Assembly: GCA_027449545.1 (NCBI GenBank)
Contig: DAIDLI010000140.1
Coordinates: 1 to 64,000, forward strand
Origin: Acidobacteriaceae bacterium
Lineage (GTDB): Bacteria; Acidobacteriota; Terriglobia; Terriglobales; Acidobacteriaceae
Direction of reading: 5' to 3'
Length of the DNA: 64,000 nucleotides
Below the pieces are notes generated by a model that made no database searches, was not told where the DNA came from, and was given only the letters and a program-made list of their open reading frames with translations. Of the stretch, positions 33,583 through 44,747 are shown in pieces. The stretch's first letter is position 1, and each line of letters begins with the position of its first letter. The position numbers and the translations under genes were made by a program.

Positions 33583-34428
33583 CTACCGTGCCAGGTCCGC
33601 GAACGAGATCAGTTCCAGCTCCGGAAATTCCTTCAGCGCGCCCAGCGCCTCGCGTTCGGTATCGCGCGAGGTGCGCAGCCGCGTGCGGACACGATCCAGA
33701 TCGCTGTCGTTGTACCCCGGGTGCGTGACCAGTTCCCAGATCCCTGGCGGCGCGTGGCGAACCAGCGCGCGGACGGTTGCGGCATTCAGCGTGCCCGTGC
33801 CCACCACCGCAATCGTACCGTCGGTGGTGGCAAACTCCGCCTCGGCAATCAAGCGCCGGCAGCGTGGCTCAAGCGTGCGCAGCAGCGACACCTGCGCCAC
33901 GCGCATCCATGCGGCTCCCTGCGTCGCTTCCACCGCCCAGGCGGGTTCAAAAGGATTGCGAATGGCTCGAATCCCGCAACTTTCCGCCGCCCGCAATACC
34001 GCCCCCAGCACACGGGGAAACATGTGCGTATGTTTGTGGGTATCCACGTGGGTCAATCGCACGCCCCTGCTTTGCAGCAGTTCGATCTGCGCCTTTGCCT
34101 CGGCCTCGATCTCCTCGGTGCGCATGCGCCCCGTCCCCAGCCGAGCAAGAAACGCACCCAGGGTGGGCAAGAGCCTCCCGGTCTTGTTGTCGATCAGCGA
34201 AGGAATTTTTCGCGGCGGCAAAACCGACTCGCCATCCACCAGTACAACGTGGCACCCCACGCCGAGGGACGGCGTGGTCTGCGCCTTCTCCACGGCATCC
34301 CGGGTAGCACCGGCCAGCGCCATCAGGGTGGTGCTGGTCAGCACGCCCGCGGCGTGCAACTCCATCACCGCGCGATTTACGCCCGCCGTCAATCCAAAGT
34401 CGTCCGCATTCACAATCAGGCGGGTCAC
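33583..34428 (-). CDS. YdjC/ChbG-like carbohydrate deacetylase (HpnK-like)
   Basis: 'MTRLIVNADDFGLTAGVNRAVMELHAAGVLTSTTLMA', 'GVGCHVVLVDGESVLP', 'VRLTHVDTHKHTHMFPRVL'. Confidence 0.88.
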   Translation of the reverse strand: MTRLIVNADDFGLTAGVNRAVMELHAAGVLTSTTLMALAGATRDAVEKAQTTPSLGVGCHVVLVDGESVLPPRKIPSLIDNKTGRLLPTLGAFLARLGTGRMRTEEIEAEAKAQIELLQSRGVRLTHVDTHKHTHMFPRVLGAVLRAAESCGIRAIRNPFEPAWAVEATQGAAWMRVAQVSLLRTLEPRCRRLIAEAEFATTDGTIAVVGTGTLNAATVRALVRHAPPGIWELVTHPGYNDSDLDRVRTRLRTSRDTEREALGALKEFPELELISFADLAR

Positions 34429-34549: not shown

Positions 34550-34626
<77 letters not shown>

Positions 34627-34632
34627 TTTCGC

Positions 34633-34722
34633 GGAGGGATGGGTGAGCGGTTGAAACCGGCGGTCTTGAAAACCGTTGTGCCCGCGAGGGTACCGGGGGT
34701 TCGAATCCCTCTCCCTCCGCCA
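34633..34722 (+). tRNA. tRNA-Ser(TGA), integration target
   Basis: GGAGGGATGGGTGAGCGGTTGAAACCGGCGGTCTTGAAAACCG...GGGGGTTCGAATCCCTCTCCCTCCGCCA; anticodon TGA, long variable arm, encoded CCA. Confidence 0.95.
34709..34722 (+). repeat. attL core (14-bp direct repeat copy 1, within tRNA-Ser 3' end)
   Basis: ctctccctccgcca; spans the 3' acceptor strand, discriminator and CCA. Confidence 0.85.
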
Positions 34723-34846
34723 CAGATTCTTCTCGAAGCAGATGAGTGACTCTTAATTCCGCTCGAGCAAACCTGTAAAGTTAATCTTTCTAGACAGATA
34801 ATCCTCCACATGGCTATTCATTGTCTCTGGTTTGCCCAGAGGGATC

Positions 34847-34906
34847 GACGGTAGGATTGACGGTACCGCATGGGACTTCCTGACGGTATGCGTTTGACTG
34901 ACGGTA
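34847..34906 (+). promoter_or_regulatory. Cluster of four GACGGTA motifs: candidate integrase arm-type/Xis sites (left end)
   Basis: GACGGTA at 34847, 34859, 34882 and 34900, all same orientation, upstream of the integrase ATG. Confidence 0.6.
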
Positions 34907-34952
34907 TCCATGCATGTATTGTATTTTTATTACATAAGAAGAGGCATGAGAC

Positions 34953-36233
34953 ATGGCGTTGACGGCAGCGGAAGTGAACGGCGCGAAGGTTCGGATAGAG
35001 GGGGGGCAGGCGAAGGCTTACAAGCTGTTCGATGGCGGCGGTCTGTACCTGCATGTCACCGAGACCGGCGCGAAGCTGTGGCGCTACCAGTTCCGACTCG
35101 ATGGAAAGCAGAGCATCTATTCCATCGGCAAATACACAGATGCTGGCAGCAACCGCGTCATCATGTCGCTGGCCGCTGCACGTGATGCGCACCGTGAAGC
35201 GAAGAAGCTGGTGGACGCTGGCACCAATCCCACCAGCCACCGGAAGTCTCGTATAGAGGCAGAGAAGGCCGCCAAAGTACACTCCTTCACCTCTGTCGCC
35301 CGGGAGTGGCTCGACTGGTTTCGTCATGGCAAGAGTGAACGGCACGTCACCGTGACCGAGTCTCGATTGAACCGTGTGATCCTTCCGGCACTCGGTGGAT
35401 ACGCCGTCAATGACATCAAGCCTCAGACACTGGTGGACTTCGCCAAGGCTATCGAGTCAGAGAGCGGAAGGGAAATGGCGGACCGCTGCCTGATGGTTGT
35501 GGGACAGGTGTTGCGGTGGGCTGTTTCTAACGGAATGGCGAAGCAGAACGTGCATGCGGGACTCAGGCCGTCGGAGATTCTCAAGCCTGCCAGGGTGGTC
35601 AACTTCGCTCGGCTCGAAGAGAAGGATCTGCCGGGGTTGCTGCGGTCCATCGACGTGTACAGCGGCACGCTGGCAAGACTGGCGATGAAACTGATGGCTT
35701 ACACCCTGCTTCGCACCGGCGAGCTTATTAATCTGCGGTGGTCCGACGTCTGCGTCGATTGTGGCGACACCGACGCTCCGAAGATCACGATACCCGGCGA
35801 AAGAATGAAGGCTGGACGCGATCATGTGGTGCCGCTCTCCAGGCAGGCCGCGCACATATGCACCTTGCTGAAGCAGTACCGCAAGATGACCGACTCCAAG
35901 AGTCAGTACGTGTTCCCGGGCACTCAGGGTGCCGCGACGATGTCGAACATGACACTGCTGGTGATGTTTAAGCGGATGGGCTATGGCAAAAAGATGACTG
36001 GCCATGGTTGGCGCGGAGTGGCGTCAACCATCTTGAACGAGAAGGGATTTAATCGTGACTGGATTGAGCTTGCGCTGGCGCACGTTCCGCAGGGCGTGCG
36101 GCACGATTACAACAAGGCGTTGTACCTTGACGGCAGGCGGAAAATGCTCCAGTGGTACGCAGACCGGCTCGATACGCTGGCGAAGCAGGCATCACAGCAG
36201 GAGGCGCATGATCCTAATCTTGGTGTCCGGTGA
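34953..36233 (+). CDS. int: Tyrosine recombinase/integrase, P4-type with N-terminal Arm-DBD (DUF4102)
   Basis: 'MALTAAEVNGAKVRIEGGQAKAYKLFDGGGLYLHVTETGAKLWRYQFRLDGKQSIYSIGKY'; catalytic-domain motifs 'AYTLLRTGELINLRWSDV' (Arg) and 'TGHGWRGVASTILNEKGF' (HxxR). Confidence 0.96.
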   Translation: MALTAAEVNGAKVRIEGGQAKAYKLFDGGGLYLHVTETGAKLWRYQFRLDGKQSIYSIGKYTDAGSNRVIMSLAAARDAHREAKKLVDAGTNPTSHRKSRIEAEKAAKVHSFTSVAREWLDWFRHGKSERHVTVTESRLNRVILPALGGYAVNDIKPQTLVDFAKAIESESGREMADRCLMVVGQVLRWAVSNGMAKQNVHAGLRPSEILKPARVVNFARLEEKDLPGLLRSIDVYSGTLARLAMKLMAYTLLRTGELINLRWSDVCVDCGDTDAPKITIPGERMKAGRDHVVPLSRQAAHICTLLKQYRKMTDSKSQYVFPGTQGAATMSNMTLLVMFKRMGYGKKMTGHGWRGVASTILNEKGFNRDWIELALAHVPQGVRHDYNKALYLDGRRKMLQWYADRLDTLAKQASQQEAHDPNLGVR

Positions 36234-36242
36234 ACTCTCCGA

Positions 36243-37166
36243 TCAGAGACTGTGTCGCGTCCGGAGCACCTGCTCTTGGATGTCACGTTCGATCGAGGCG
36301 TAGAGATCCGGGAGGCTCTTTTTACGTCTTCTTAGGCCATCTTTTACCTTCTCATGATCAAACTCCTCCGCCTTCCTCGTCCATCCTCCAGCAGCTATTC
36401 CGGCAGCGATGAGTACCGCGATTTTTGGATAGCTGCAGCCGTATCGGTCCCGAAGGAGGAGAACAAGCATGAGAAAACCTTCGTCGTTCATTTCATCCCG
36501 TTTTGCGTGCGAGATCGAACGGAAATGCTCTTCAAGCCGCGAGAGCAGACCCTTCCCTCTGGCAATCCAGTCAATCAACTCGTGCCGCTCCGCAGGCCAA
36601 TCTACGGGGTTCGTCCTGTCTTCAACTGCGAGGACCTTATCTGCACCCTCCTCTTCATTCCTCTCCCCCACTTGCTTAGGGTTTGCGAGAGCCTCAATCC
36701 TTACGAGTAGGGAACCCGCCTTGGAAAGATTCTTCTTCAGGAGCGAGTGAAGCTGCCGCTTATCTTCGACAGCGAATCCGGTTCCGACAGCACGGTCCAC
36801 CGAAAGTCCATCTGTGAGCCTGTGGATCCTTTCAGCCACGTCCCGGATACTTCCAAATGCGCTAATGGATCTCCAAGCGGCCGCACCGTTGTGACTGTTG
36901 AGGTACGCCTCAAACCGCTGAAGCCATCCTGCGTCGAGCGGCTCATCGATCCACGTTAAGCTGCCAGCCGGAACCTCCGCCTCGTAATCGGCGACAACGT
37001 TAAGACCATGTTGTACTTGCTGTGACTTCCCCATACTGCAATTGTCGTTGAAGACCAGAGGCTCCGCCAGCGGAGGGGCCAAAAATTTCAAATCGGGGAC
37101 CGTTTTCAACCACTGATTCCGTCCGCAAATGTACGTACAACTGTAGCTGAGGATGTGACTGAGCAC
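36243..37166 (-). CDS. Hypothetical protein, convergent to the integrase
   Basis: 307-aa ORF with protein-like composition and no recognised family; start uncertain (alternative Met 'MGKSQQVQHG'). Confidence 0.55.
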   Translation of the reverse strand: MLSHILSYSCTYICGRNQWLKTVPDLKFLAPPLAEPLVFNDNCSMGKSQQVQHGLNVVADYEAEVPAGSLTWIDEPLDAGWLQRFEAYLNSHNGAAAWRSISAFGSIRDVAERIHRLTDGLSVDRAVGTGFAVEDKRQLHSLLKKNLSKAGSLLVRIEALANPKQVGERNEEEGADKVLAVEDRTNPVDWPAERHELIDWIARGKGLLSRLEEHFRSISHAKRDEMNDEGFLMLVLLLRDRYGCSYPKIAVLIAAGIAAGGWTRKAEEFDHEKVKDGLRRRKKSLPDLYASIERDIQEQVLRTRHSL

Positions 37167-37345
37167 CTTGGCTCAGTTGCAGATCTCGCACGTCGGTTGC
37201 GTTCGGATGAGTCGGGTTCAGTGGCCGGAAATGCCGAGAATCGGGCATGATTTTGGCCACTGTATCTGCCCCTAGAAATTCGTAATCTACAAGAGCCTCG
37301 ACAAGAAATTGCAGGGCAATAGAGCACTGAACAAAAAAGGACAAA

Positions 37346-37639
37346 TTGACTAAATATCAACAACACTCATTTACATCAGCAAACGCAGTAATGCCTACCA
37401 ACGGAGGCCGTCATGCTCTTCGCGTCGGTAGGATCAACGATGTCGCATCAATCGTCAAAATGGCACCGTCAACCATCCGCGCAAAGATGCAGCGCGGTGA
37501 ATTCCCCTGCTCGATTCGCCTCTCCTACAAGCTGGCTGTCTGGAACCTCGATGAAATCGAAGCGTGGTTTCATGACAAGCTGAACGCCGCGCCGGTATAC
37601 GTTCCCTATCGCAGAACTGCGGAGGTGACAAATGGTTAA
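37346..37639 (+). CDS. AlpA-like/MerR-type DNA-binding regulator (excisionase-like)
   Basis: 'LRVGRINDVASIVKMAPSTIRAKMQRGEFPCSIRLSYKLAVWNLDEIEAWFHDKL' matches the AlpA pattern. Start TTG 37346 or ATG 37391. Confidence 0.8.
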   Translation: MTKYQQHSFTSANAVMPTNGGRHALRVGRINDVASIVKMAPSTIRAKMQRGEFPCSIRLSYKLAVWNLDEIEAWFHDKLNAAPVYVPYRRTAEVTNG

Positions 37640-38030
37640 TCCTCCGACTCGGATTCTGACCCACAAGAAGCAGCGCAAGCTGACGGATGCGCAGGTTCTC
37701 TTCCTGCTCCTAGAGTACGTCGAAACCGAGGCCACGTATCGGACGCTTGCCCAAAAGTACGCCATCTCGGAAAAAGCGATTAGCAACATCGTCAACAACA
37801 TGTCTTATCGTGAGCTAGCCACCATCACTCAGGTGCGCAAGAAGGCGCAACAGAAGGCCAGTGCGAGTTCTGGACGGTACAGCCACGCCGAACCTGCACG
37901 CGTTCCAGACGCAACGAAGACGCTGATAGAGGTCGATTTCAATTCGGTGTCCTCGATTAACACCGCCCTTCATCACCTTCTGGATAGGCGCTCGACGCTG
38001 ACCGACTCTGCTGAGGAGGTTGCGGCATAG
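37632..38030 (+). CDS. Small helix-turn-helix protein, translationally coupled
   Basis: 'LTDAQVLFLLLEYVETEATYRTLAQKYAISEKAISNIVNNMSYRELA' HTH-like; ggaggtg RBS; overlaps the preceding stop. Confidence 0.65.
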   Translation: MVNPPTRILTHKKQRKLTDAQVLFLLLEYVETEATYRTLAQKYAISEKAISNIVNNMSYRELATITQVRKKAQQKASASSGRYSHAEPARVPDATKTLIEVDFNSVSSINTALHHLLDRRSTLTDSAEEVAA

Positions 38031-39334
38031 TGAACCTGTCAGCTTTCTGCGTAGACGAGCACCGGCAGGCGCAGGAGATCATGGACGTGGGGGCGGTGCA
38101 AGCCGCTCCTGCCTTCTGTTCACCGCTTCCTTCGCTGCGCGTCTTTCCTGTGAAAAACAAGCGGCCACTGTCGCGAGGCTGGCAACATTCTGCACCTATC
38201 GACTTAAAACTAGTTGCCGGTTGGCAGGAGAAACATCTTGGCTGCAACTGGGGCGCTGCTCTCGACTCTGATACGATGGTGATCGATTGTGACAGCGACG
38301 CGGCGTTGTCCGCGCTCTGCGACATAGCCGAGTCGCATGGTGGCATTCCTTCAACGCTGACAACGATCACGGGACGCGGGTTTCACTTCTGGTTCCGCAC
38401 ACCAGTACCAGTCCATAACCGTGTAGCCGTGATGCCCGGTGTAGACGTTAGAACCAAGGGTGGGTTCGTTGTAATCCCGCCGTCGGTCCATCAGAATGGT
38501 ACGCCTTACCAGTTCGCATGGTCTGATGCTCCCGTTGCCGATGCACCTGAGTGGCTCCTGAGGCTCGTGACAGGAGCTGCTTCTGGCGCTCGCAAATCGA
38601 ACGCACACTCTGCGCCGACGGGGTCAACAACGCCCGAACTGCTGGAGGGTCTCACTCCTTTCGAGCGGGACATCGCAAGATGTGGCTGGGAGAGACGTCG
38701 CGCTCCGGGCAAGGTTCCTGATGGTCGTTCGCCGTTTGCACTGCTCATTGCGTTACAGCCACACAAGGTCATCAAAGGTATCAGAAACGGTGCGCTGTAC
38801 GCGTACCTTTGTCGCCTGAGGCACGAGGGCAAGGCCGAAGAGGCTATCCGTGTTGAGGCGAGGCGAGTAGCCGCACGTATTCCAGAACCCCTTAGCAGGT
38901 ACGAGGTGGAACGCGTAATCGCCAACGCACTAAAGTTCGATGCAGGGGCGATTGGCACTAACACTCTGGTACAGGCGTGGCGTACAGTCGAACAGATCGA
39001 CACCGGTCCCGGTATGACCCGGTGGTACAGGTTTCTGCTACTGGTGGAGCAATTGGCAGAGACCCGTCCGATGTCGAAGCCAACCATCCTGCTCCCAGTG
39101 CGGTCGATTGGCATCCTGATGAATGCTCATCACACGCAGGTGGCGAAGTGGAGGCGGAGGGCAGTGGAGATGGGCATCTTGTCGAATACGTCTCGATACG
39201 TCCGCCGTCGTTTGGCAGATGAGTTTACTGTCAAAGCCGGGTTTTCTCCTCTCACTGATGGTCCTGCCCTCTACAAGGTCAAGCGCGGGAGGAAGCCAAG
39301 GACAAAGCCTATCGAACTGGAACAGGGGGTGTAG
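38030..39334 (+). CDS. PrimPol-type bifunctional DNA primase/polymerase
   Basis: 'FPVKNKRPLSRGWQHSA', 'GCNWGAALDSDTMVIDCDSDAALSAL' (DxD-type acidic motif 38285-38299), 'TITGRGFHFWFRTP' (xHxxF motif 38372-38395). GTG start overlaps the previous TAG; gaggaggt RBS. Confidence 0.85.
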   Translation: MNLSAFCVDEHRQAQEIMDVGAVQAAPAFCSPLPSLRVFPVKNKRPLSRGWQHSAPIDLKLVAGWQEKHLGCNWGAALDSDTMVIDCDSDAALSALCDIAESHGGIPSTLTTITGRGFHFWFRTPVPVHNRVAVMPGVDVRTKGGFVVIPPSVHQNGTPYQFAWSDAPVADAPEWLLRLVTGAASGARKSNAHSAPTGSTTPELLEGLTPFERDIARCGWERRRAPGKVPDGRSPFALLIALQPHKVIKGIRNGALYAYLCRLRHEGKAEEAIRVEARRVAARIPEPLSRYEVERVIANALKFDAGAIGTNTLVQAWRTVEQIDTGPGMTRWYRFLLLVEQLAETRPMSKPTILLPVRSIGILMNAHHTQVAKWRRRAVEMGILSNTSRYVRRRLADEFTVKAGFSPLTDGPALYKVKRGRKPRTKPIELEQGV

Positions 39335-39595
39335 ACGCCGGACAAATAAATATGCTCACCATATCTTCCAGGCCCTTGGGGTATGGTGAGCACAATTCCG
39401 CTCCGAGCGCGGTTGTCGGTCGATGTTGCCGTTGTTCTGTGATTGCGGAACCGGCAGCGACAGATGGGCAGGTGACCCAGATTAAGGCCTACAGGCTGCC
39501 ACCAGATTGGGTACCTTGACCGCCTGCCCTTGGTGCTCCTGCCATTGCTGGACAGGGTGGCTGCAGCGGGTGTTTACTGACCGGTAACTGAAGAG

Positions 39596-39631
39596 TTGCC
39601 GACTAACCGGGAGCTATTGCCGATAAACCGG
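39596..39631 (+). repeat. Two iteron-like imperfect direct repeats, 21-bp period
   Basis: ttgccgactaaccgg (39596-39610) and ttgccgataaaccgg (39617-39631), 13/15 identical. Confidence 0.5.
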
Positions 39632-39633
39632 AC

Positions 39634-40059
39634 ATGATCAGAATTGACAGTGGCCACCTTCGCGGAGTCGGCACACTATGTGCAAGATGCACCAGACTGC
39701 TCAAGCCAATGATCAGCGCGAAGTGGATGAAACGAATAGTGGGCATCGCAGCTGGGGCTGGCTGTGCTGTGGCTGTTGACTTCTGGCCTCCGGAAGCAAT
39801 GGCCTTTCAGATGGCCCTCTACTCCATGATGGTGTTGGTGCCGCTGGGCTTCGGATCATGGTCTAAACGGCATTGTGATAGGTTCTCCCTTGCTATTTCG
39901 ATTGCTACTATTCTGCATTGTGCCTTCCTGTATTTAATCCACGGAGTCTTTCCATTCCGAAGCATTTTGCCCATTGTTCCTCTGGTTCTGTGCGAATCAT
40001 CAGTCTTGTTCCTCATGACAATGAAGATCACCGCTGAGGACAACGCCCAACGGGAATAA
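39634..40059 (+). CDS. Small predicted membrane protein (cargo, unknown)
   Basis: Hydrophobic segments 'IVGIAAGAGCAVAVDFW', 'MALYSMMVLVPLGFG', 'LAISIATILHCAFLYLIHGVF', 'ILPIVPLVLCESSVLFLM'; start uncertain. Confidence 0.55.
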   Translation: MIRIDSGHLRGVGTLCARCTRLLKPMISAKWMKRIVGIAAGAGCAVAVDFWPPEAMAFQMALYSMMVLVPLGFGSWSKRHCDRFSLAISIATILHCAFLYLIHGVFPFRSILPIVPLVLCESSVLFLMTMKITAEDNAQRE

Positions 40060-40106
40060 GCGATGTGTCGGTCAACTCTCGACCCCGTATTGGGACGGTT
40101 GACCGC

Positions 40107-40538
40107 CTACTCTTCCCCTACGTAGCCATCCAACCACTCGGCAGGTAGCGCACGAATAGCCTCTGCGATCCGAGCAATCATCGGGCGGGTATAGACCTCG
40201 ACGGGGTCTTCGAGTCGGTTGTCGTCGTGGTAGAACTCGCCTTGATCGAAAGCCCGGTAGACATCCCAAAAGAGCTGAGGCCTCGGCCCACTTGTGTTGG
40301 TCACGGCGACAGAAAGGTCATTCACCACTGCATCGCAAAACTCGAATGAAAGTTCGGACGAGTCGAATCCAAGCGCCAGATGGTGGGCAATCGCATTGAA
40401 GAGCTGAGATCGAGACCAGCCACATGCGGCAGTCCAACGCTGAACATCTTGCTCACTCAGGTGGCGATCAAGGTCGCCGTAGTGAACGCCGTCACGGTAA
40501 AAGGACTTTAGCTCACGGACGACGTCAGGCAGTTGCAT
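40107..40538 (-). CDS. Hypothetical protein (cargo, unknown)
   Basis: 143-aa ORF 'MQLPDVVRELKSFYRDGVHYGDLDRHLSEQDVQRWTAACGWSRSQLFNAIAHHLALGFDSSELSFEFCDAVVNDLS', protein-like composition. Confidence 0.65.
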   Translation of the reverse strand: MQLPDVVRELKSFYRDGVHYGDLDRHLSEQDVQRWTAACGWSRSQLFNAIAHHLALGFDSSELSFEFCDAVVNDLSVAVTNTSGPRPQLFWDVYRAFDQGEFYHDDNRLEDPVEVYTRPMIARIAEAIRALPAEWLDGYVGEE

Positions 40539-41248
40539 GGCACAAGTCTAATTAACCCAGTGCCGGCAGGTTGCGTTGCGATTCCGGGCGTTGCGGGCGG
40601 ATGACCGGCAAACGTCGCCCTTGGGTGATCCGGCTCACGCTGCGGCGACTATGGCCGATTACACCGACAACGCGTCAGCCACCGGATTCCCAATGGCGGG
40701 ATCCACCGCAGGCAGCATGGCCAGACGCTGGTGGTTTCTGCACCCGCTGGTGGTGAGAGGGGTGGCAAAGCTTCAGTGAAATGCGCAAAGTGTGCGCCTG
40801 CTGGAGGCAGATTGTGAAAACGCGGCTGTGTGCCGGAAACCAGGCGGCGGTTGGAGGTCATCTCATCGTCTGAACTCCATCGCCCCCCTATCCCCTTGCC
40901 ACAACCTGACGCACACTTTTCGCTCGTTCAATTCAGCCGTCCGTCTGCACCAGTTGGCCCCGTCATCTGTTCGCAGCCCTTGGAACGCGTCAGAAGCCAA
41001 ATGCGTGGCAGCAATGGGCACCGGAGTGGAGTGTGTGCCGACCGATCGACGATGCCTATCGCAGCTGAATGCGCTGGCGCTTGCGGGGGACTGGGATCCC
41101 ATGAGGACCGCTCGTGGATCCGGCTCTGGTTGCACTCGAATGAGGTGAACCGGAATAATTGTGGAACTGGACTGATGTGTCATTGTTTTGGCCTTGCCCC
41201 CATTCGAGGGAGTCGGTACAGTGGTCGAACATAGGAGAAAAGTTGAGA

Positions 41249-41719
41249 ATGACAAAGTTCGCTGCCGCGCTACTATTGATCGTAGGCTCAGTCTGTGCAG
41301 ACGCTAGGACGCAACTACAACAACAGAAGGCCACACCCTCTCGCCCCACTGTTTTGGTTACGGCCGGTACCGAAACCGATAGCGCCACGAATGCGGCCGG
41401 GGCAGGAACTGCCATTGGGCACGTAGCGGTTGGAGGAGCTAGCGTAGACACAAGCACCTATGAGCATTCTGAGGTATGGGAGGTTGTCCGTCATTTTCAA
41501 GAGGAGTGTCCTGCAGCAAATTTCGTGACGAACCCTGAAACGCCGCATACCCTGACAATTCACACTGATTACCAAAAGATCAGCAGTTGGATGACGGGAA
41601 CGATCGTAATTTACCAACTGGCTCTGCTGGACCACGCGAACAACCCCATCTACGTGAGCAAAAAAAAGCTGCTTCGCGGACAGATTAAGCCGATATGCAA
41701 GCTTATCCAGCGACAATAG
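41249..41719 (+). CDS. Hypothetical secreted protein (cargo, unknown)
   Basis: Signal peptide 'MTKFAAALLLIVGSVCADA'; RBS aggagaaaag; start trimmed from 41159. Confidence 0.65.
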   Translation: MTKFAAALLLIVGSVCADARTQLQQQKATPSRPTVLVTAGTETDSATNAAGAGTAIGHVAVGGASVDTSTYEHSEVWEVVRHFQEECPAANFVTNPETPHTLTIHTDYQKISSWMTGTIVIYQLALLDHANNPIYVSKKKLLRGQIKPICKLIQRQ

Positions 41720-41775
41720 TGGCGATAACCATTCAGGAGTCGAGCTGATAGACCAAGAGGACATCAGCTCGAAAA

Positions 41776-41794
41776 GACGGTACGAATGACGGTA
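41776..41794 (+). promoter_or_regulatory. Paired GACGGTA motifs: candidate integrase arm-type sites (right end)
   Basis: GACGGTA-CGAAT-GACGGTA; same 12-bp spacing and orientation as GACGGTA-GGATT-GACGGTA at 34847-34865. Confidence 0.6.
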
Positions 41795-41846
41795 TCTTCA
41801 CATACGAACGGAGCTAACCAACGCATATTCAAAGCGGAATGTCGGA

Positions 41847-41860
41847 CTCTCCCTCCGCCA
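41847..41860 (+). repeat. attR core (14-bp direct repeat copy 2)
   Basis: ctctccctccgcca identical to the tRNA-Ser(TGA) 3' end. Confidence 0.85.
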
Positions 41861-41972: not shown

Positions 41973-44747
41973 ATGATGCGAAAATTCGCTGTCCTATTCT
42001 TCCTGGCAATTCTGGCCCGCTTTGCCTGTGCCGTGGAGCCGGTGTGCACCCTCAAGCAGCCTCGGCTGCGTGTCAACCGCTCCGACATCTTTACGGATCA
42101 GCAGGAGCAGTGGCTGGGCGATGCGCAGGCCGACATGGTCGAGCCCCGCTACACCCTGCTGCCTGCCAGTGAAAGCACTTATCTGGATGTCATCGGACAG
42201 CGGCTCCTGCGCCAGCTTCCGCCCACGCCCATTCACTACACCTTCCGCATCTACGAATCGCCCGATCTGCGCGCCTTCTCCGTGGCCGGCGGCCATGTCT
42301 ACATCAGCCGCAAGCTGGTCATGGACGCGCGCAGCGAGGACGAACTTGCGGCAATGCTCGCACAGGAGATCGGGCGAATCTACATCCACCACGCGGCCAC
42401 TGCAGTCACGCGGCGCATGGAACATACGCTGCATGTGAAGAAGCTCGGCGGCCGCGCGGACGTTTATGACAAGTTTGAGCGCATGTTGAATGTGCCGACC
42501 GATGCCTACTCCTTCCTGGACACAGGCGAACAGGAGCACGACGAATTGATGGCGGACCGCGTAGGAATCTACGCGATGATCAAGGCGGGCTACAATCCCC
42601 AAGCCTTCGCCACCTTCCTCGATCGCGTCAACGACAACGGAGGATACACTGGCAATCTATTTACCGACGCCTTCGATCTGACCCCTCTGATCAGCCTGCG
42701 GGTGCGCATGGCCGACAAGCTGGTTTCGTCGCTTCCGCAAGGTTGCCGCAATCCTCGCCCTCTGTTTCGTCCCGGCTTTCAGCCTTTCCAGCAGGCCATC
42801 GGTCAGGAACGCATCAATCCCATCGTTCCCGCCACGCCGGGCCTGACCTCTTCTGCGCTTCCCCATCCCATCAATCCGGCGCTGGAGAATGTCGCTCTCA
42901 GCCTCGACGGGAAATACCTGCTCGCCCAGGATGGCTACCAGATCCACGTGTTCACCACCTCGCCGTTGCAACTTCGCTTCTCCGTCGACGCGCTGGGAGC
43001 GGAGATGGCTAAATTCACGCCCGACTCGCAGGGCCTGGTCTTCAACTACAACGATCTACACATGGAACGATGGCAGCTGGCCACCGGCCAGCCTGCGGAC
43101 ATTCAGGATTTCGTCGACTATGCCGGCTGCGTGCAGACCAGCTTGTCGCCCGACGGCAATGCCATGGCCTGCGTCAGCGAGTTCTTCGATTCCGTATGGT
43201 TGAAGCTCGCCGATATTCACACCGGCAGCATGCTCTACCAGAATCTGCATTTCTACGACAAATATGCGACCCCTGAAAACAGCAACGCCCGCATGAGCCC
43301 GCATTACCAGGCGTTGATGCACTGGTCGCGCGACGGACGCTACTTTGTGGCCGCATCCGGGGTGGCGGCCATGGCCTACGACCTCCAGAACCACCGCAGC
43401 GTGAAGCTGAGCGGCACGCTTTCCGACCTGGCCCAGCAGCGCTTCGCGTTTGTCGGATCAGACAAGATGGTTTCCACCTGCGACTGGAGCCTGAAAACCG
43501 GGGCCGCCGGCGAGACCTTCACCATGTGCTACACCACCTTTCCCGGCGGAAAGACTCTCAAAAAATTCCAATTGCCGCCGGGCTGGCTAGCCAGCACTGC
43601 CGGAGGCGAACGACTGCTATACGGGCCGGCTGGCAAGGCTGCCGCCGTTCTCGTCAATCCCGCTGCCGCACAGGCAGCAGATGAATTCCGGGATGAAGCA
43701 GTGGACGTGCGCGGTAATGAATGGGCCGCGGAGATGCCCGACGGAGGAATCGGCCTGGGAACCTTCGACGGGCATGTACAGCAGGCCGCTCTGCCGATAA
43801 CTCCGTTGACGGAGTTACCGGCGGTTGCCTTCAGCCCCAACGGCCGTTATCTTGCGCTCTCCAATCGAGCGCGCGGAGCGGAGTGGGACCTGCTAAGCGG
43901 CAAGCGAACGGCGGTCACGAATCCTTTCCGTGATGTCGAAGTCACCGACAGTGGGAATCTGGAGGCAGCGCTCATTCCGCATGACCTGAACCCCTCCAGC
44001 GACGTCCGCATTGACAAGCGCATGCACAGATATGTTCCGGGGCTAAGCGCACTCGCGGACCCCTTGCAGTTCGGAACCGTGCGGATTCGCTTTCAGCCGC
44101 TCAATCCGCGACAGGATTTGAATGCTGACGTCCGCATGAGCGCGTTTGACGCCCGCAGCGAAGCTCATCTTTGGTCGCGCACGTTCCTGGGTCCGCTTCC
44201 CAAGATGGCCGTCGCCGACGGGGATCAGACCGTCTTGACCATCGGGCGGAGTCTCTGGAGCGGAAGTGGCAAGCTGAAGCACACCTCCGACCTCACACTC
44301 CAGTTCATCAACCCGGTGGGCACTGTTGTCGAAGTGATCTCCAATCGCACCGGAAAAACAGAGCATGCGCTGTTTGCTCCGCAGCTCCCTCCGGCGAAGC
44401 GGAGAAGCGACGAGCGTACCGCAGAGCTGTTTGGCAGTCTGCTTGCGGTCTACGGAAACAATAACGATACGACGGTGTATGGCGTCTCCGACGGCAAGCG
44501 CCTTCTGGGCTTCTTTGGACGGGCACTGGCCGGGGATGACAGGCTGGGAATGGTGGCAGCGACCAATCGCATCCAGGAGCTGAACCTTTATGACACCGCC
44601 ACAGGAAAGCGTCTGGCGCACGATCTGCTGGATCAAGCCGTGATCGCCGCGCGCTTTCTTCCGGAACGCAAGCAGTTGCTGGTGCTCACAGCCTCGCAGC
44701 GACTCTATCGGATCGATGTTTCGACACTCGCTACGACAAAGCGGTGA
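41973..44747 (+). CDS. Exported M48-like pseudopeptidase fused to a beta-propeller/WD40-like region
   Basis: 'FRIYESPDLRAFSVAGGHVYISRKLVMDARSEDELAAMLAQEIGRIYIHHAAT' and 'EHDELMADRVGIYAMIKAGYNPQAFATFLDRV' are M48-like; C-terminal propeller repeats ('LSLDGKYLLAQDGYQIHVF', 'FSPNGRYLALSNRA'). Confidence 0.75.
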   Translation: MMRKFAVLFFLAILARFACAVEPVCTLKQPRLRVNRSDIFTDQQEQWLGDAQADMVEPRYTLLPASESTYLDVIGQRLLRQLPPTPIHYTFRIYESPDLRAFSVAGGHVYISRKLVMDARSEDELAAMLAQEIGRIYIHHAATAVTRRMEHTLHVKKLGGRADVYDKFERMLNVPTDAYSFLDTGEQEHDELMADRVGIYAMIKAGYNPQAFATFLDRVNDNGGYTGNLFTDAFDLTPLISLRVRMADKLVSSLPQGCRNPRPLFRPGFQPFQQAIGQERINPIVPATPGLTSSALPHPINPALENVALSLDGKYLLAQDGYQIHVFTTSPLQLRFSVDALGAEMAKFTPDSQGLVFNYNDLHMERWQLATGQPADIQDFVDYAGCVQTSLSPDGNAMACVSEFFDSVWLKLADIHTGSMLYQNLHFYDKYATPENSNARMSPHYQALMHWSRDGRYFVAASGVAAMAYDLQNHRSVKLSGTLSDLAQQRFAFVGSDKMVSTCDWSLKTGAAGETFTMCYTTFPGGKTLKKFQLPPGWLASTAGGERLLYGPAGKAAAVLVNPAAAQAADEFRDEAVDVRGNEWAAEMPDGGIGLGTFDGHVQQAALPITPLTELPAVAFSPNGRYLALSNRARGAEWDLLSGKRTAVTNPFRDVEVTDSGNLEAALIPHDLNPSSDVRIDKRMHRYVPGLSALADPLQFGTVRIRFQPLNPRQDLNADVRMSAFDARSEAHLWSRTFLGPLPKMAVADGDQTVLTIGRSLWSGSGKLKHTSDLTLQFINPVGTVVEVISNRTGKTEHALFAPQLPPAKRRSDERTAELFGSLLAVYGNNNDTTVYGVSDGKRLLGFFGRALAGDDRLGMVAATNRIQELNLYDTATGKRLAHDLLDQAVIAARFLPERKQLLVLTASQRLYRIDVSTLATTKR

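Follow-up and report, generated by a model that had tools for sequence, protein, structure and literature searches.

What kind of element is inserted at the tRNA-Ser(TGA) gene of an Acidobacteriaceae bacterium (assembly GCA_027449545.1), where exactly does it end, and how might it move between cells? The window analysed here is a stretch of 64,000 nucleotides (DAIDLI010000140.1, positions 1 to 64,000, whose numbering is used throughout), contig 140 of a 4.43 Mb draft genome that is 93% complete. Behind the tRNA gene it holds a compact set of genes for an integrase, an AlpA-type regulator and a primase-polymerase (PrimPol). We conclude that this set belongs to a real, precisely bounded integrative element, which we regard as almost certain, and, judging from its sequence, we consider it probable (roughly 0.6) that the element is a minimal phage satellite working like a phage-inducible chromosomal island (PICI) or a phage-inducible chromosomal minimalist island (PICMI). 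Genomes and loci used for comparison are given by our own handles (G and L numbers).

The target gene, tRNA-Ser(tga), lies at 34633..34722 on the forward strand, in tandem with its left neighbour tRNA-Val(tac) (34550..34626, forward strand; both called by ARAGORN). Its last 14 bp, CTCTCCCTCCGCCA (34709..34722, forward strand), form the attL core and recur as an exact direct copy, the attR core, at 41847..41860 (forward strand), as the original prediction had proposed. Exactly two copies of CTCTCCCTCCGCCA are present in the 64 kb window, both in direct orientation and enclosing the element genes, and 100 dinucleotide shuffles gave a mean of 0.00 exact matches to the core. When up to two mismatches were allowed, four sites were found in the window versus 0.95 expected, so that weight can be given to the exact match alone. 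The inserted DNA, originally put at about 7.1 kb, measures 7138 bp (34723-41860), and tRNA-Ser(tga) stays whole through the 14 bp supplied by the element itself. GC content is 55.7% inside the element versus 60.7% in the left flank and 63.8% in the right flank. The right chromosomal neighbour encodes a 924-aa protein (41973..44747, forward strand), which is 93% identical, and collinear, in the closest relative, G074.

The integrase gene, int (34953..36233, forward strand), begins 231 bp past tRNA-Ser, in agreement with the approximately 230 bp first noted, and encodes a P4-type tyrosine integrase of 426 aa. Its arm-binding, central and catalytic domains are all present (Pfam Arm-DNA-bind_3, Phage_int_M and Phage_integrase), and the RKHRHY catalytic residues (R254, K286, H351, R354, H377 and Y386) are intact in an alignment with two relatives. 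Four copies of the motif GACGGTA (34847, 34859, 34882 and 34900; span 34847..34906, forward strand) lie 125, 137, 160 and 178 bp past the core and overlap the int promoter region, while two further copies (41776 and 41788; span 41776..41794, forward strand) stand 71 and 59 bp ahead of the attR core. In 2000 dinucleotide shuffles of both end segments, no 7-mer occurred at least twice on each side. We regard these repeats as almost certainly arm sites of the integrase, which fix both ends of the element.

The same geometry was found in related elements. In the element of genome G431, to which we return below, GGGGTA-type repeats follow the left core at 126, 139, 161 and 182 bp and precede the right core by 75 and 63 bp, and in G059 GACGGTA is found 126 and 138 bp past tRNA-Ser(GCT), followed at about 160 bp by GACGGTG, which differs from it at one position. 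A 12-bp-spaced pair of one 6-mer was present in the left interval of 14 of 28 tRNA-linked integrases of the window type (0.4 expected), and a matching right-end pair in four of the five elements with a right core (chance about 0.006 each), in a survey of integrases that are related to one another and thus not fully independent. The left interval and the 12-bp spacing were chosen after viewing the window and G431 elements; without these two, the pair is found in 13/26 left ends and 2/3 right ends. Among acidobacterial P4-type integrases in tRNA genes, left ends (L222-L256) carry GGGGGTA-like repeats at about +115/+127/+149 counted from the tRNA, and at right ends (L176, L228 and L251) a 12-bp-spaced pair precedes the distal core by 59-85 bp. 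The window element shares with tRNA-integrated P4-type integrase elements both a direct copy of the tRNA 3' end at its far border and, by sequence and geometry, arm-type sites inside both ends; the exact repeat and these arm-site-like repeats together support precise tRNA-targeted integration by its integrase. In the case of KplE1, arm sites overlap the promoter of intS and the gene represses itself (PMC2951348), and by analogy self-repression of int is likely in the window element.

Could the 14 bp repeat have arisen by chance, with the border of the island elsewhere? The core is short and the empty site was not found. We predict an empty site (attB) in which tRNA-Ser is directly joined to ttgcatggagcag (ttgcatggagcagtcgctcg) and a circle junction of tgtcggaCTCTCCCTCCGCCAcagattcttc; an exact scan of the genome contigs for the attB pattern gave 0 matches. 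In G074, both flanks are collinear, but the contigs break inside the gap, at window positions 33929 and 42008, and no element DNA was found. In the other relatives checked, ChbG and tRNA-Val are still together, a gene order kept within the genus, but tRNA-Ser(TGA) and the right neighbour are found elsewhere, and synteny therefore cannot prove the junction. Nevertheless, the shuffles yielded not one exact core match, and the distance of the right arm pair from the attR core, 59-71 bp, is comparable to 63-75 bp in L176 and L228 and 71-83 bp in L251; we find a chance repeat barely credible. Related integrases at tRNA-Ser(TGA) are also found in G018, G022, G072, G051 and G117. At a locus of G072 (L120:2798-4275; G072:C93), ChbG and tRNA-Val are arranged as in the window, with a related integrase (44% identity) beside tRNA-Val, not tRNA-Ser. 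The five genomes with integrases at tRNA-Ser(TGA), together with this integrase at the tRNA-Val of the equivalent locus, mark the region as an integration hotspot.

Further into the element, alpA, a small gene and the PrimPol gene form a tight overlapping operon (37391-39334). The product of alpA (37391..37639, forward strand; reading frame open from 37346) is an AlpA-type helix-turn-helix (HTH) regulator or excisionase (Pfam AlpA, E 1.9e-7). The second gene (37632..38030, forward strand) encodes a protein of 132 aa and overlaps alpA by 8 nt and the PrimPol gene by 1 nt. PrimPol itself (38030..39334, forward strand; 434 aa) matches Pfam PF09250 Prim-Pol with an E value of 6.6e-31. The gene list of the original prediction thus stood for integrase, AlpA and PrimPol, whereas for the 132-aa protein, which has no relative in 199 genomes, the HTH assignment comes down to a weak match.

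The residues D86, D88, H119 and D139 of the archaeo-eukaryotic primase (AEP) domain are kept in PrimPol and invariant in an alignment with its relatives. Pfam recognised PriCT_1 in four of the five aligned PrimPol proteins; in the window protein it is below detection, though alignable. A low-confidence structural model (mean pLDDT, the predicted local distance difference test, of 51) shows PriCT-1-like helices downstream of the AEP domain and a C-terminal winged helix, and has pRN1 PrimPol and RepB' as its best structural matches. No helicase/NTPase domain was found in PrimPol. Mobile genetic elements with RepE/RepS, PrimHYQ or ColE2-type Rep proteins encode an AEP followed by PriCT-1 and HTH, with no helicase, and many of them lie in tRNA genes with direct repeats; for such helicase-less primases, an unwinding role of the PriCT-1/HTH part has been suggested on the model of ColE2 Rep (PMC5862659). 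With its AEP residues, its alignable PriCT-1 and the C-terminal winged helix of the low-confidence model, the window PrimPol shares this layout, differing from RepE/RepS and PrimHYQ in the undetected PriCT-1, and the likeness is one of layout, not a family assignment. A scan of IMG/VR with the single PrimPol sequence gave no match and a scan with the PrimPol alignment gave five distant loci, while phage and plasmid records searched beside these scans gave partial matches (<45% identity among the matches listed).

The original prediction suggested a search for the same gene order in other acidobacteria; AlpA-PrimPol islands were found there in tRNA-Glu and tRNA-Arg genes. In all six short-PrimPol elements, AlpA is encoded directly before PrimPol or one small gene before it. 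Short PrimPol genes with an AlpA-like gene directly upstream are present in tRNA-Glu islands of the window genome, G053, G027 and G002 (L063-L066), which range from 5.0 to 17.8 kb (5.0 kb in G053, 6.4 kb in G027), have a different integrase type at the far end and hold only AlpA, PrimPol, integrase and cargo. The second PrimPol island of the window genome (L063:5676-11169; G000:C128) lies in tRNA-Glu(ctc), is about 5.4 kb long and has 53 bp perfect repeats. That of G002 (L066:3-7089, L179 and L178; G002:C1, about 2018847-2036685) spans 17.8 kb in tRNA-Glu(ctc), flanked by 47 bp repeats, and its cargo comprises type I restriction-modification genes and a DUF262-like gene, named by sequence reading.

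The element of G431 (L176:420-10238; G431:C1:2899419-2909237) occupies 9.7 kb in tRNA-Arg(cct) of a closed acidobacterial genome, with 21 bp att repeats. It encodes a P4-type integrase (40% identity to the window integrase), AlpA, PrimPol, TerS, an HK97-type capsid and a prohead protease, and judged by these genes it is capsid-forming-PICI-like; one of its open reading frames (ORFs) resembles PADLOC PDC-S31. In G054, a P4-type integrase in tRNA-Glu is accompanied by a PrimPol of about 680 aa and then TerS (L250; G054:C6:1-6500, ending at the contig end). A 9.4 kb element in tRNA-Gln(ctg) of G002 (L246:479-9976; G002:C1), with 22 bp repeats, carries genes for a head maturation protease and sigma-factor-like and DnaD-like proteins, and no capsid was recognised in it. 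The TerS of the G054 element and the head protease of the tRNA-Gln element support a satellite setting.

How does the window element compare with known satellites? Gram-negative PICIs combine an integrase, AlpA and a primase-replication module at a fixed chromosomal site, with no virion genes. The window element likewise has int, alpA and a primase in one island of the 7-20 kb class devoid of virion genes; it differs in that no terS, ppi or capsid-redirection gene was recognised, in standing at the short end of the size range and in being acidobacterial. As had been noted from the ORFs, no capsid, terminase, portal, relaxase or type IV secretion system (T4SS) family was found among its proteins with Pfam, PHROGs and NCBIfam, and the lack of a relaxase or T4SS match also separates it from integrative conjugative and mobilizable elements. 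The PICMI of Vibrionaceae, whose type element has 6.1 kb and the genes int-alpA-prim, is packaged as concatemers (PMC10803314). The window element corresponds to it in its int-alpA-prim content at 6-7 kb, and resembles it in its very small size, its core of integrase, AlpA and primase, its lack of capsid-remodelling and structural genes and its terminal direct repeats (PMC10803314). However, PICMI adjoins fis, whereas the window element lies in tRNA-Ser(TGA), and the PICMI primase is of the DUF3987/DUF5906 type, in contrast to a PF09250 PrimPol with no helicase. Own capsid genes, as in capsid-forming PICIs, are present in the G431 relative and absent from the window element. The arm-domain P4-type integrase in a tRNA gene is a trait of P4-like satellites, whose alpha protein is a primase-helicase; unlike in those satellites, no psu/delta/sid-type genes were noted in the window element, no search aimed at them having been made. 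Tycheposons and VEIMEs (virion-encapsidated integrative mobilizable elements) are tRNA-linked or chromosomal islands of marine bacteria and suspected satellites, to which the acidobacterial window element is likened by description only, not by sequence.

Because no PICI packaging gene was recognised, and the PICMI site and primase differ, we call the element satellite-like and not a member of PICI or PICMI. The class originally assigned to it, satellite/phage-inducible-island-like or cryptic, was upheld, and it is strengthened by G431, which combines a like integrase, AlpA and PrimPol with TerS, capsid and protease in 9.7 kb.

A possible cycle of such a satellite would be as follows. Integrase present at low level would bind the arm sites overlapping its own promoter. 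On induction AlpA, as its role in PICMI and P4-like elements suggests, may switch on int and/or act in excision, and the integrase would recombine the two 14 bp cores into a circle and a restored attB, a step proposed from the anatomy of the ends. PrimPol may then start replication with no helicase of its own, and the element DNA would exit in helper phage particles, perhaps as a concatemer, a route proposed because the element has no capsid, terminase or conjugation gene. The remaining genes would be cargo.

Several points weigh against a phage satellite. No packaging or capsid-interference gene was recognised in the element, where divergent ones might escape Pfam, PHROGs and NCBIfam, and several of its genes lack an informative homologue. 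Neither a helper phage nor an excised circle nor an empty site came to light, helper prophages in the window genome not having been searched. Confidence in the PrimPol model is low (mean pLDDT 51). Cargo such as restriction-modification genes is present in the tRNA-Glu relatives, yet packaging genes are missing from them too, and therefore a non-phage route is possible.

One such route would be that of an autonomous, integrative-plasmid-like replicating element, copied by PrimPol after excision, which travels by transformation, in vesicles or by general transduction without exploiting any particular phage. The absence of a packaging gene would fit this explanation, as would tRNA-Glu relatives (L063-L066) made up of AlpA, PrimPol, integrase and cargo only, and short helicase-less AEP-PriCT-1-HTH primases are known in tRNA-gene elements (PMC5862659). 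Nevertheless, G431 has this PrimPol family and integrase type in company with TerS, capsid and protease, and PICMI demonstrates that a phage satellite needs no more than int-alpA-prim (PMC10803314); an autonomous element seems rather unlikely to us. Transfer in trans by a conjugative element, through an unrecognised origin of transfer (oriT), would make the window element an integrative mobilizable one, and relaxase-less elements can indeed use the oriT of a conjugative helper (PMC11389934), but as neither a relaxase gene nor a coupling or T4SS gene was found in the element, where no dedicated oriT search was made, we judge this highly improbable. Decay of a larger prophage or island to an immobile remnant might account for the approximately 23% of the element that is intergenic, the 710 bp at 40539-41248 with no clear gene and the two orphan ORFs (307 aa and 132 aa). 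However, the two cores match exactly, each end has its arm cluster, the catalytic residues of integrase and PrimPol are kept, the core ORFs are all open and the alpA-HTH-PrimPol operon is tight, and decay appears quite improbable.

Most of the phage satellites known so far are from Proteobacteria and Firmicutes, and a search of a collection of papers combining acidobacteria with phage satellites found no report. If the window element is a phage satellite, we tentatively suggest that acidobacteria may have a satellite lineage of their own, built on a module of AlpA and helicase-less PrimPol that has been shuffled among integrases and tRNA sites and exists in stripped (window and tRNA-Glu islands) and capsid-forming (G431) forms, minimal and capsid-forming elements being stages of one family. 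This would mean that an abundant soil and peat phylum also has phage satellites, that some satellites use a one-protein origin-binding primase perhaps needing no helicase of their own, and that the arm-site rule is a simple means to locate the exact ends of many further islands.

The other genes of the element belong to no known family. A 307-aa protein (or a shorter one from an internal ATG; 36243..37166, reverse strand) has no relative in 119 genomes; a link to helical proteins of L063/L064 was dropped, as the alignment was just 23% identical. A hydrophobic ORF of 141 aa (39634..40059, forward strand), an uncertain gene, probably encodes a membrane protein and would be cargo. So would a 143-aa protein (c143; 40107..40538, reverse strand), whose relatives in G002 (64%) and G070 (about 50%) adjoin neither integrase nor tRNA, and a scan of IMG/VR with it gave no match. 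The 710 bp that follow (40539..41248) contain no convincing gene and are a candidate origin or packaging site; no iterons, significant fold (z -1.02) or phage gene were found there. A defence search of the window proteins gave chance-level matches only, for example BrxB (E 0.02). The last gene (41249..41719, forward strand) encodes a putative cargo protein of 156 aa with a signal-peptide-like N terminus, and its one close relative (57%) belongs to a 6.4 kb PrimPol element at tRNA-Glu in G026.

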